A DNA stretch of 64,000 nucleotides from positions 186,001 through 250,000 of the forward strand of contig JAIQFS010000001.1 in assembly GCA_020073145.1 (NCBI GenBank). The letters run 5' to 3'. Of the stretch, positions 24,069-44,510 are shown in pieces. The position numbers and the translations under genes are program-made. The notes under the pieces are model-generated. The model did no database searches. It had not been told where the DNA came from and saw only the letters and a list, made by a program, of their open reading frames with translations. Positions within the stretch are counted from its first letter, which is position 1. Every line of letters begins with the position of its first letter. This DNA is from Terriglobia bacterium. GTDB lineage: Bacteria > Acidobacteriota > Terriglobia > Bryobacterales > Bryobacteraceae.

Positions 24069-24489
24069 TCCAGAACCTTGACCGTGCCGTCGGGCTTGAC
24101 CTTGATGTTGGGGGCTTGAGGTCGCGATGGACGAGGTTCTATTCGTGCGCGGCTTCGAGCGCATCGGCGATCTGGCGGGCGATGGCGAGGGTCTCAGCGA
24201 GCGGGATTTTGCCGAGCGCCGTGCGGTCGGCGAGCGTCGGACCTTCGACCAGTTCCATCACCAGGTAATTGGGGCCGACGTCGTGCAGCGTGCAGATGTT
24301 GGGATGGTTGAGGGACGCGATGGCGTGGGCTTTTTCGAAGCGCTCGCTGAAACGCTCGGCGGAAACCTTGATGGCGACTTCGCCAGCGAGGCGGGAATCG
24401 CGGGCACGGTACACCTCGCCCATGCCGCCCGCGCCGATGGGGGCGACGATCTCGTAGGGGCCCAGGCGCGTTCCGGCGGAGAGGGGCAT
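24069..24489 (-). pseudogene. Truncated Ser/Thr protein kinase remnant
   Basis: The first 116 residues are an intact N-lobe: GPYEIVAPIGAGGMGEVYRARD (Gly loop), VAIKVS (ATP lysine), HPNICTLHDVGPNYLVMELVEGPTL. The frame then hits a TAG directly before NLVHRDLKP. One base is lost within the following proline codons, and after correcting this NIKVKPDGTVKVLDF is read. Homology ends right at the DFG position, where the rnhA fragment starts on the other strand. Activation segment and C-lobe are missing. This is a gene remnant with a stop, a frameshift and a breakpoint. Confidence 0.85.
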
Positions 24490-41785: not shown

Positions 41786-42895
41786 ATGAGCTTCGAATTG
41801 GGACGGACCGTCGGCGGCTATGAGTTTCTGGATGTGCTGGATACGTCCAGCATGGACGTCGCCTATAAAGTACGAAACCACCTGAGCCAACGCCTGGAAG
41901 CGCTGAAGGTTCTTCCGGCGAATTCGAGCGATGACCGGGAAGGCGTGGAGCGGTTCCTGCGCGAGATCAAGGTGCATGCCCGGTTGCTGCATCCGAACAT
42001 AGTCACCTTCTACAATGCGGCCGAACTCGAGGGTCAACTGATCATGACCACGGAGTTCGTGGAAGGTATTACGCTCACCGAACGCGTGAAGCAGATGGGC
42101 GGGCTGCCGTGGTGCGAGGCCTTCTCACACGTCACGCAGATTCTGCTGGCGCTTGGCTACGCGCACGAGCAGGGCATTGTGCACCGGAACGTGACGCCGG
42201 ATTCGATTATTCTGACGGCGGACGCGACGGTCAAGCTGTCGGGGTTTGGTCTAGCCAAACTGATGGCGTCGCCGAGCCTGACGCAGGCGGGCGCGGTACT
42301 GGGCGCGCTGGGGTACATACCGCCGGAGCAGATTCGGGGAGTGGGGACCCTGGATGCGCGATCCGACCTGTACTCCGTCGGAGTCGTACTGTACGAGGCG
42401 CTCACGGGGCGGCTGCCGTTCGACTCGCAGAGCCAGTTCCAGGTGATGCTGGATCATGTGGCTGCGGAACCGCCGGCGCCGAGCGCGATCAACCCGCAGG
42501 TGCCTCCGGAGTTCGATTCGATCGTGATGACGGCTCTGGCCAAGGACCCGGCCGCGCGGTTTCAGAGCGCCGATCAATTCCGAGCCCGGCTGGAAGGAGT
42601 GAGAAACACGCTGCGCGGAAAGACTGGAGCGCCGGCGGTGAGCGGCCCGAGCAACCGCGAAGTGCCTTTGGAAACAGCAGCGCCGGTTGCGGCGCGCGAA
42701 ACAGTGGCGGATACGCACTTAGGAGCGGAAGGGTCTCCGGGACCGGTTCTCGTGCCGGACGGGGGCAGTCTGGTTCCGGCCTTCTGCGCGGTGCCGCCGG
42801 TTCATCTCGGCCACCGGAGCCTTCTCATTCTGGGAGTATCGTCCCTGGCGATCGGGATGGTGGTAGCCGTGTTGATGACGGTGGCGCGGCCTTGA
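41786..42895 (+). CDS. Predicted Ser/Thr pseudokinase with C-terminal membrane anchor
   Basis: A kinase-fold protein of 369 aa from the ATG at 41786 (AGGAG upstream). The ATP lysine is kept (RLEALKVL, K41), but the Gly loop has no glycine pattern (FLDVLDTSSMDVAYK). The catalytic loop reads VHRNVTPDSI, with N135 for the essential Asp and S140 for Asn; the metal-binding DFG reads GFG (G153). PPEQIRG and DARSDLYSVGVVLYE show the rest of the C-lobe intact. One C-terminal helix (LLILGVSSLAIGMVVAVLMTV) anchors it. It is 31 bases upstream of an apparently active kinase, so a regulator or scaffold role for that kinase is the likely reading. Confidence 0.8.
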   Translation: MSFELGRTVGGYEFLDVLDTSSMDVAYKVRNHLSQRLEALKVLPANSSDDREGVERFLREIKVHARLLHPNIVTFYNAAELEGQLIMTTEFVEGITLTERVKQMGGLPWCEAFSHVTQILLALGYAHEQGIVHRNVTPDSIILTADATVKLSGFGLAKLMASPSLTQAGAVLGALGYIPPEQIRGVGTLDARSDLYSVGVVLYEALTGRLPFDSQSQFQVMLDHVAAEPPAPSAINPQVPPEFDSIVMTALAKDPAARFQSADQFRARLEGVRNTLRGKTGAPAVSGPSNREVPLETAAPVAARETVADTHLGAEGSPGPVLVPDGGSLVPAFCAVPPVHLGHRSLLILGVSSLAIGMVVAVLMTVARP

Positions 42896-42926
42896 CGGAC
42901 GGATCAGGACGAAGCCAGGAGGTTGG

Positions 42927-44510
42927 ATGAGTTATAAGCCAGGCAGCGTCATCGGCGATTACGTCGTGATTGCCACCGTGGGCAGCGGCGGCATGGGGAG
43001 CGTGTACAAGGTCCAGCACGTCATCACGCAGCGCATCGAGGCCATCAAGCTGCTGGCCTCGGGGCGCACCGAAACCGACCAGGAGCAGCGGTTCGTGCGC
43101 GAGATGCAAGTGCAGGCACGCCTGCACCATCCCAACATTGCGGCGGTGTACAACGCGTTTCGATATTACGACGAGTTTTTCCTGGTGCTGGAGTTTGTCG
43201 AGGGGGAGTCGCTGGAGACGGTGCTGAGTCGAGGCCGGCTGGCGCTGGCCACGGGGCTGCATTACGCGCGGCAGGCGCTCTTTGCGCTCGGCTACGCGCA
43301 CGCGCACGGTGTGGTGCACCGCGACATCGCTCCATCGAACATGATCATCACGCCGGATGGCACGGTGAAGCTGACCGATTTCGGCCTAGCGAAGACGGCA
43401 ACGGACATCCGCCTGACGCACTCGGGAGCACCGCTCGGCTCGCCGTGGTACATGTCGCCGGAACAGGTGAGAGGCAATTCGACGCTGGACGCGCGCAGCG
43501 ACATCTATTCGCTAGGGGCGGTGTTGTACGAAATGGCGACGGGGGCCAAGCCCTTCGACATGGCGAGCACGTTCGACGTGATGCGGGCGCAAGTGGAGAC
43601 GGCGGCGATGCCGCCGCTGGTCCGGAGGCCGGACTTGCCGCAGGCGTTGAACGACATCATTCTGACAGCTCTGGCCAAGGATCCCAACGCGCGATTCCAA
43701 TCGGCCGAACAGTTCTACGCGGCGCTAGAGACGCTGCAGCCGGCGGACGTACGGTCCGAAGCGCGCCCGGCAGTTCCGAATCCCGCTGCCGCCGCCACCG
43801 CCGCACCTGCCAGCGCTGCCGCCCCCCGCGCTTCCGTGCCGCTGCTGAGGAGGCCGCGGAAGTCGCGAATGCCGCGATTTTTCGCGCATCCCGTGGTGCA
43901 AGCCGGCTTGGGGACCGCGGCGTGCGGTCTCACGTTGTTCGGTGGGTACACGGCGTACTCGATGGTTCGGGTCGCATCGGCGCCGGCGGTGCCCGCGATC
44001 GTCACCGCCCAACCGAACATTCCGCCGCCGCCGGATTTTCTGCTCCCTGCGGCGCCTTTGCCGCCGGCGGCCGAGTCCGCAGCGAGTGGAGACCCACCCG
44101 TCCCGCCGAGTGAGCCACCGGCGCCGCGACGAATCCGGAAAGTGGCAACGCGCACCGCAGAGCCCGGGATGTTCACGCCGCAACCGGCGCGGGCGTTGCC
44201 GCCGTCGGCAGCGCCGTCGGCTACGCTGGAAGCTGAACCGCCGAAATCGCACCCGGACCTACCACCGCCTCCAACGGTCGCGGCGGCGCCGGCGATTCCC
44301 AAGCTCCCCGCGTCCCTTGCGGCCGCCAATCCAGCGGAGAGCCAGGACGAACCGCCGGTGATCACCGGCCCCTCCGAACCAGCGCATCGAGACAAGAAGG
44401 AAGGCAACCGGTTCTTCCGAGCGCTGCACAAAGTGGTGCCGTTCCACAAAGAAGAGAGCGCGGGGCCGGCGGCTTCGTCCGCGACCCGTTCGTCGCCGGA
44501 TAACCAGTAG
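42927..44510 (+). CDS. Ser/Thr protein kinase with Pro-rich C-terminal region
   Basis: Transmembrane PknB-like kinase of 527 aa. The Gly loop IATVGSGGMGSVYKVQH, K41 (EAIKLL), D133 and N138 in VHRDIAPSNM, D151 of the DFG, and MSPEQVRG are all intact, so it should be active. One deviation is A135 where Ser/Thr kinases usually have Lys (HRDxK). A single membrane helix (residues about 320-345: AGLGTAACGLTLFGGYTAYSMV) follows. The C-terminal 180 residues are Pro/Ala-rich and end with a basic/acidic tail; no PASTA or sensor domain is seen. It is translated just after the pseudokinase. Confidence 0.88.
   Translation: MSYKPGSVIGDYVVIATVGSGGMGSVYKVQHVITQRIEAIKLLASGRTETDQEQRFVREMQVQARLHHPNIAAVYNAFRYYDEFFLVLEFVEGESLETVLSRGRLALATGLHYARQALFALGYAHAHGVVHRDIAPSNMIITPDGTVKLTDFGLAKTATDIRLTHSGAPLGSPWYMSPEQVRGNSTLDARSDIYSLGAVLYEMATGAKPFDMASTFDVMRAQVETAAMPPLVRRPDLPQALNDIILTALAKDPNARFQSAEQFYAALETLQPADVRSEARPAVPNPAAAATAAPASAAAPRASVPLLRRPRKSRMPRFFAHPVVQAGLGTAACGLTLFGGYTAYSMVRVASAPAVPAIVTAQPNIPPPPDFLLPAAPLPPAAESAASGDPPVPPSEPPAPRRIRKVATRTAEPGMFTPQPARALPPSAAPSATLEAEPPKSHPDLPPPPTVAAAPAIPKLPASLAAANPAESQDEPPVITGPSEPAHRDKKEGNRFFRALHKVVPFHKEESAGPAASSATRSSPDNQ

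Follow-up and report, generated by a model that had tools for sequence, protein, structure and literature searches.

A conserved pseudokinase predicted from sequence, encoded beside an active-type Ser/Thr kinase in an acidobacterial family

The two kinase genes at the locus

The stretch of DNA analysed here (the window; 64,000 nucleotides, positions 186,001 to 250,000 of contig JAIQFS010000001.1, assembly GCA_020073145.1) belongs to a Terriglobia bacterium of the family Bryobacteraceae in the phylum Acidobacteriota and carries on its plus strand two adjoining genes of the protein kinase superfamily. The first, designated PSK (41786..42895), codes for a predicted pseudokinase of 369 amino acids with a PknB-like kinase domain (approximately residues 1-275), a linker of low model confidence and a C-terminal hydrophobic helix. 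This helix, a putative tail anchor, spans residues 346-364 (42821..42877, plus strand), has a hydropathy of 2.62 and ends 5 residues before the C-terminus. The second gene, designated KIN (42927..44510, plus strand), codes for a partner kinase of 527 amino acids with intact glycine loop, Lys, HRD, Asn and DFG, a weak central hydrophobic segment and a Pro/Ala-rich C-terminal half. As an earlier note on this DNA had put it, the two genes lie 31 bases apart, counted from stop to start on the same strand, and a ribosome-binding-like sequence, AGGAGG, was read by eye before KIN (42917..42922, plus strand). A promoter scan of the pair found neither a plus-strand promoter-like site nor a plus-strand terminator.

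The window PSK carries the segment LDTSSMDVAY and no GxGxxG, while Lys41 is retained. Its catalytic loop reads HRN-VTPDS, in which HRN replaces HRD and Ser replaces the loop Asn; further downstream GFG replaces DFG and PPE replaces APE, and DARSD is retained. The motif losses listed in the earlier note, together with the kept ATP lysine, were all confirmed in the sequence. Both proteins belong to the protein kinase superfamily by their matches to Pfam Pkinase (PF00069): PSK scores 142 bits against a cut-off of 31.7, with the profile match beginning at position 14, and KIN scores 181.8 bits. The AlphaFold2 model of PSK shows a kinase fold with pLDDT of at least 90 for 238 of 369 residues and below 50 for the linker (residues 286-361). 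Aligned to PknB, PSK shows a single 2-residue gap and its activation segment is complete up to PPE. The EssB/YukC family was not among the Pfam matches of the window PSK down to E 0.001, in an analysis where no search was aimed at type VII secretion genes. If a pseudokinase is defined by the loss, conserved in orthologues, of at least one of the Lys, the HRD Asp and the DFG Asp, PSK is one. Among the 44 complete PSK proteins, 43 carry a hydrophobic stretch of 19 residues at a distance of 1-13 residues from the C-terminus, the exception being L134, which has no tail helix. PSK is thus predicted to consist of a kinase fold held by a tail anchor, without any outer part.

KIN carries the glycine loop GSGGMG and the catalytic loop HRDIAPSN, in which the Lys of HRDxK is changed to Ala, so that the claim that it has all catalytic residues stands for the glycine loop, Lys, HRD, Asn and DFG and fails at this one position. 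The change is not peculiar to the window: of the 39 partner kinases, 31 have Ser, Ala or Thr in place of the HRDxK Lys, and of 72 other relatives 1 does, the remaining 71 keeping it. Such a loss may point to dependence of the partner kinase on PSK. Membrane anchoring, which had been proposed for both proteins, is clear for the C-terminal helix of PSK; the central helix of the window KIN is weak, with a Kyte-Doolittle value of 1.19 as compared with at least 1.75 in relatives with a measurable tail. In the partner kinases the hydrophobic stretch lies nearer to the kinase domain than in PSK and is followed by a longer tail. Five partner kinases were scanned for domains, and nothing was recognised beyond the kinase in four of them. 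The fifth, which belongs to genome G030, has WD40 repeats in the C-terminal part (L069:6258-8393), an indication that the module is variable outside its kinase domains, with the pseudokinase remaining minimal.

Distribution, descent and pairing

Searches with the PSK protein as query covered 61 relatives, 237 genomes from the family, 257 from the order and a sample of 396 from the phylum; the best few candidates per genome were scored (8 in the family, 7 in the order, 5 in the phylum) and many of the strongest matches were fetched. These searches yielded at least 52 PSK-type genes. They are spread over at least 48 genomes: the family, with 237 genomes examined, contributes 45 from 20 genera, and a sister family contributes 3, the figure of 48 being a lower bound because the best few candidates were scored per genome and not every match was fetched. 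Outside the order, among the 396 phylum genomes searched, 9 of 9 fetched matches have intact motifs and none is of the PSK type. The PSK rows were selected by similarity to the window protein and, in later batches, mostly by short open frames. Forty further fetched matches contained two genes of the PSK type (L201 and L208), placed only in the largest of the trees described below. When public genomes were searched with the PSK alignment, a generic kinase motif dominated the matches, and among 95 kinase open reading frames (ORFs) screened in the loci of the best 80 of at least 583 relatives one was of the PSK type (L226). Three more rows from public genomes had been flagged merely for gaps or misalignment at the Lys column, HRD, Asn and DFG being present in them. 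A kinase with HGG and an intact DFG (L087) was excluded from the PSK set and groups with ordinary kinases in the tree, and L085, where a contig begins with what is probably a PSK tail, was left uncounted.

A second, longer subtype of PSK, with HCD, HLD or HCG in the catalytic loop, was observed in a single genus, g86 (L125, L142, L146, L167, L201 and L208). It sits at a contig end in 6 of 6 cases, and one of its tails weakly matches a repetitive family; such a repetitive tail may break assemblies and hide the genes downstream.

The catalytic residues are lost throughout the PSK set. Among the 52 proteins GxGxxG is retained in none, the Lys in 18, the HRD Asp in 19, the loop Asn in 25 and the DFG Asp in 3; no member keeps the Lys, the HRD Asp, the loop Asn and the DFG Asp together, and a single member keeps three of them. 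Relatives of the first gene with intact HRD and DFG had been named in the earlier note as the sign of a decayed copy, and an intact active site was found in 0 of 52. Since the PSK set was first picked by motif loss, trees built without the columns of the glycine loop, Lys, HRDxxxxN and DFG served as an independent test. In these masked trees PSK forms one clade, with SH-aLRT support of 99 (120 rows), bootstrap/SH-aLRT of 100/97 (88 rows, after 32 of the 120 rows, namely near-copies, long or outlying rows and L068, were dropped) and SH-aLRT of 99 (167 rows, two outlying rows dropped). None of the 115 other kinases in the 167-row tree falls inside the PSK clade. The 39 partner kinases group together along with three further kinases (SH-aLRT 90, 120-row tree). 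The simplest reading of these trees would be a single early loss of catalytic residues and not local decay, and the pair is most simply explained as a conserved module that would have arisen from one duplication of a PknB-like receptor kinase in the ancestor of the family.

Within genera, the ratio of nonsynonymous to synonymous substitution rates (dN/dS) of the PSK kinase domain ranges from 0.017 to 0.267 in 21 of 30 comparisons, the other 9 being saturated at silent sites, and that of the partner from 0.013 to 0.205. On these estimates PSK is maintained by purifying selection, as a kinase fold that ends in a hydrophobic anchor. The sets of lost catalytic residues differ between PSK lineages, which is what a decaying duplicate without function would also produce. 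Against such decay speak the single clade, the open reading frames, a purifying selection close to that on the active kinase and the retention of anchor and scaffold residues; neither dN/dS near 1 nor frequent frameshifts were seen within the clade. Decay of a single copy was rejected, and we consider a functionless PSK exceedingly improbable. The dead kinase probably serves instead as an integral regulatory partner.

The pairing, tabulated for 50 PSK genes, of which 6 lie at a contig end and 44 are testable, proved to be conserved, its absence having been the other refuting condition of the earlier note: the partner kinase lies directly downstream on the same strand in 39 of the 44 cases, from 39 genomes and 18 genera of one family. 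Thirty-eight of the pairs were found by script, and that of L152 was added by hand because its frames overlap beyond the window of the script. A possible start codon lies between -4 and +11 nucleotides from the PSK stop in 31 of 38 measured pairs. Pairwise distances among PSK proteins and among their partners are correlated with r = 0.924 over 39 pairs, the best of 2000 permutations reaching 0.157. A dedicated, co-conserved active partner of the kind that marks a HER3-like pair is thus seen in the downstream position and in the distance correlation, with five PSK genes unpaired. By sequence, PSK qualifies as a genuine pseudokinase that is conserved and has its own active-type kinase as neighbour, and the two genes together are, as judged from these comparisons, an ancient, maintained kinase-pseudokinase module.

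Retained residues and possible roles of the pseudokinase

The columns kept in PSK are those of the kinase scaffold: the alpha-C Glu60 is present in 52 of 52 proteins, Lys or Arg at position 41 in 47, His133 in 52, Phe154 in 51 and Glu181 in 52. The regulatory spine and the Lys/Arg-Glu bridge are in this way kept, a hint that PSK may hold an active-like shape. Ten columns were found that are at least 95% conserved in the partners and in which no residue reaches 60% in PSK (L134 left out); by our assignment nine of them belong to the ATP or catalytic site or adjoin it. The putative retention of scaffold and active-like shape with loss of the chemistry is the pattern of a regulatory pseudokinase. 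Another catalytic activity, as in SelO or SidJ, or ATP binding as a switch might be read from the Lys or Arg at column 41 and from the kinase fold predicted at high confidence. The nucleotide site speaks against it, where no alternative conserved set of residues was seen and where the glycine loop, DFG Asp, loop Asn and Lys persist in 0, 3, 25 and 18 of the 52 proteins, and we regard this explanation as very improbable.

The tenth of the differing columns is column 34, which is equivalent to L33 of PknB. The PknB mutants L33D and D76A are, as we assume, dimer-interface mutants, and R10 is presumably a third interface position. PknB L33 aligns to column 34 and D76 to column 77, and entries titled L33D (3ORI) and D76A (3ORM) exist for PknB in the Protein Data Bank. 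PknB and PknD are activated by N-lobe dimerisation, and loss of the PknB interface leads to an inactive conformation (PMC3601408, available in part). The contact positions of MviN, L750 and D793, have the same spacing as PknB L33 and D76 according to the accessible part of a review (PMC12599244). Set against 72 ordinary relatives, all 39 partners have Thr in place of Ser34; Asn replaces Thr77 in 29 of them, Glu replaces Arg30 in 29 and His replaces Asn31 in 35. When the 270 columns are ordered by divergence from other kinases, column 34 is 7th in the partner and 21st in PSK and column 77 is 12th and 25th, respectively; at column 30 Lys or Arg in PSK stands opposite Glu in the partner in 29 of 39 pairs. 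The changes at the columns of PknB L33 and D76 in both proteins are suggestive of an altered interface; these positions were noticed after the differing columns had been seen.

These observations are consistent with an allosteric partnership, to which we give about an even chance, in which PSK would supply the catalytically silent half of an N-lobe dimer of the PknB type and so switch its partner on. After one duplication of a PknB-like receptor kinase in the ancestor of the acidobacterial family, PSK and KIN would meet at the membrane and form a heterotypic, back-to-back N-lobe dimer of the kind known from PknB. PSK, fixed in an active-like shape, would act as a non-catalytic activator (or conditional brake) of KIN, and KIN would carry the variable outer part and the phosphotransfer. 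In a more far-reaching version, which we rate as less likely than not, the tail-anchored PSK might be the obligate allosteric half of a heterodimer and the catalytic half might have come to depend on it. Acidobacteriota would then have evolved a division of labour like that of HER3 on their own, through duplication of a PknB-type kinase and conversion of its homodimer interface into one for heterodimers.

The same conservation, pairing and interface evidence would fit an inhibitory decoy, in which PSK would compete against homodimerisation of the partner and hold it inactive until the two proteins part on a signal; the position of the PSK gene, which comes first and mostly abuts or overlaps the partner gene, would fit as well. 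A decoy need not keep an active-like spine and the Lys/Arg-Glu bridge so strictly, and the partners, 31 of 39 of which have lost the HRDxK Lys, look more like kinases that need help than kinases that need a brake. Neither point is decisive, and a decoy role appears distinctly unlikely. Rather more room is left for a docking platform as in MviN, whose pseudokinase domain has a tail that is phosphorylated by PknB and recruits FhaA (PMC12599244, in the part of the review available). By analogy with this precedent, the partner would phosphorylate the activation loop or linker of PSK, which would recruit an FHA-type reader or a substrate at the membrane, and kinase activity would not be set by PSK. 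The activation-loop Thr166, kept in 45 of 52 PSK proteins, and the long low-confidence linker (286-361) before the anchor speak for docking. Thr166 is, however, just as conserved in ordinary kinases (72 of 72) and the linker is poorly conserved; no gene family besides kinases recurs beside the pair across many genera, in a survey in which no search was aimed at FHA models. Docking is in our judgement somewhat unlikely.

Several findings weigh against the allosteric partnership, or against the module on which it builds. Pairing is not universal, and most family genomes showed no PSK (45 of 237 have one); in the genus of the window PSK was found in 2 of 5 genomes, and two others of that genus, 98 and 100% complete, gave no strong match to either gene. 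Five PSK genes with room downstream are unpaired, 3 in the sister family and 2 in this family, and two partner-type kinases (L079 and L086) have no upstream PSK; a third partner-type kinase, that of L085, has the tail of a PSK at its contig edge. Clustering of ORFs at the 50 PSK loci gave no flanking gene conserved across many genera: kinases and their shadow frames come out on top, and other families occur in at most 9 loci, many of them in one genus. Joint vertical descent also predicts the correlation between PSK and partner distances. The interface statistics are modest. The position R10 ranks only 81 in the partner and 48 in PSK, and for the three positions together p is 0.006 over all columns and 0.025 over the N-lobe in the partner, and 0.015 and 0.064, respectively, in PSK. 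The opposition at column 30 is missing in the window pair itself, which has Arg and Gln there.

Comparison with known systems and other kinase-like genes

The nearest solved structures to PSK, by sequence (E 1.2e-46) and by fold (Z 37.1, rmsd 1.3 over 259 residues), are PknB-type (PASTA) receptor kinases, namely PknB of M. tuberculosis and its relatives, and activation of PknB through its N-lobe dimer is the model applied here to the pair. Unlike these kinases, neither protein has a PASTA domain by Pfam, and PSK is inactive by its residues and has no outer domain. The two proteins score 261.5 and 268.2 against the NCBIfam model PknB_PASTA (NF033483), below its cut-off of 450, and are thus not assigned to the PASTA kinases.

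The analogies drawn in the earlier note, CwlM/MviN-type proteins among them, were loose, since CwlM is not known to be a kinase-fold protein. MviN (MurJ), on the other hand, does have a pseudokinase domain; as a member of the ActPs3 family it shares with PSK a link to the membrane and a PknB-like back-to-back dimer (PMC12599244, available in part). PSK differs from MviN in its complete loop, in a domain that stands alone on a tail helix and in the active kinase encoded next to it. The other recognised families of bacterial pseudokinases, DYD, GLW, ActPs1, ActPs2, CP1 and DLHK, several of which have a C-terminal membrane region, are assigned in the accessible part of the same review to actinobacteria, firmicutes, proteobacteria or cyanobacteria, and "Acidobacteri-" has no match in its text. 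DYD is defined there by Arg for the beta-3 Lys together with loss of the alpha-C Glu (PMC12599244, available in part); PSK falls outside this family, as the alpha-C Glu is kept in 52 of 52.

Likeness in action, as distinct from membership, connects the proposed pair with HER3/HER2, STRAD/LKB1 and Gcn2, where an inactive kinase fold allosterically activates an active one; these systems are eukaryotic, and the domains of Gcn2 lie in one chain. HER3 is a pseudokinase that allosterically activates its partner. The Caulobacter pseudokinase is presumably DivL, a relative of the histidine kinases, with a histidine-kinase fold that we take to be unrelated to Hanks-type kinases. It is comparable to PSK as a bacterial pseudokinase with a regulatory role, coupling signalling pathways in asymmetric division (PMC5361649, available in part). 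For Gcn2, a direct interaction of pseudokinase and kinase is reported to serve activation (PMC4014428, available in part). YabT of Bacillus subtilis resembles PSK as a Hanks-type kinase with a C-terminal membrane helix and no outer domain, and differs in being catalytically active and DNA-activated, with no pseudokinase partner mentioned in the accessible part of the source (PMC6333020).

Bacterial pseudokinases and PknB-type dimers are thus already known, and bacterial pseudokinases were described in 2025 as experimentally largely unexplored (PMC12599244, available in part). In the accessible part of that review, a conserved, co-diverging gene pair of a pseudokinase and its active sister is not described, and the pseudokinase operons given contain no named active kinase. 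A literature search that covered few subscription papers gave no other report of such a pair among the matches listed, where that review was the one paper of direct relevance. As the partner is named by gene order in 39 genomes, two small kinase domains suffice for a direct test of what PSK does. Should the heterodimer exist, the solution known from HER3 or STRAD would have arisen independently in bacteria, and the 39 co-diverging pairs would be a natural set for studying how a homodimer interface changes into a heterodimer interface.

Next to the window pair, the genes hrcA-grpE-dnaJ are encoded divergently. A heat-shock link was considered and dropped, because these genes recur in just one other of the fetched stretches (G030), which are of about 4 to 18 kb and in some cases limited by the contig.

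The genome of the window gave 67 kinase matches, of which 50 kinase ORFs were examined, the remainder including several fragments. The Lys, the catalytic Asp, the Asn and the DFG are retained in 47 of the 50, three of these having an unusual glycine loop; the other three ORFs are PSK and two of far greater divergence. These two divergent, pseudokinase-like ORFs (L340 and L341, on contigs C3 and C11) have HGH or HGR for HRD, SSD for DFG and no glycine loop. Elsewhere in the window, on the minus strand (24139-24489), lies a 116-residue remnant of a kinase N-lobe with the glycine loop and Lys intact and an early stop, which looks like a broken kinase gene.

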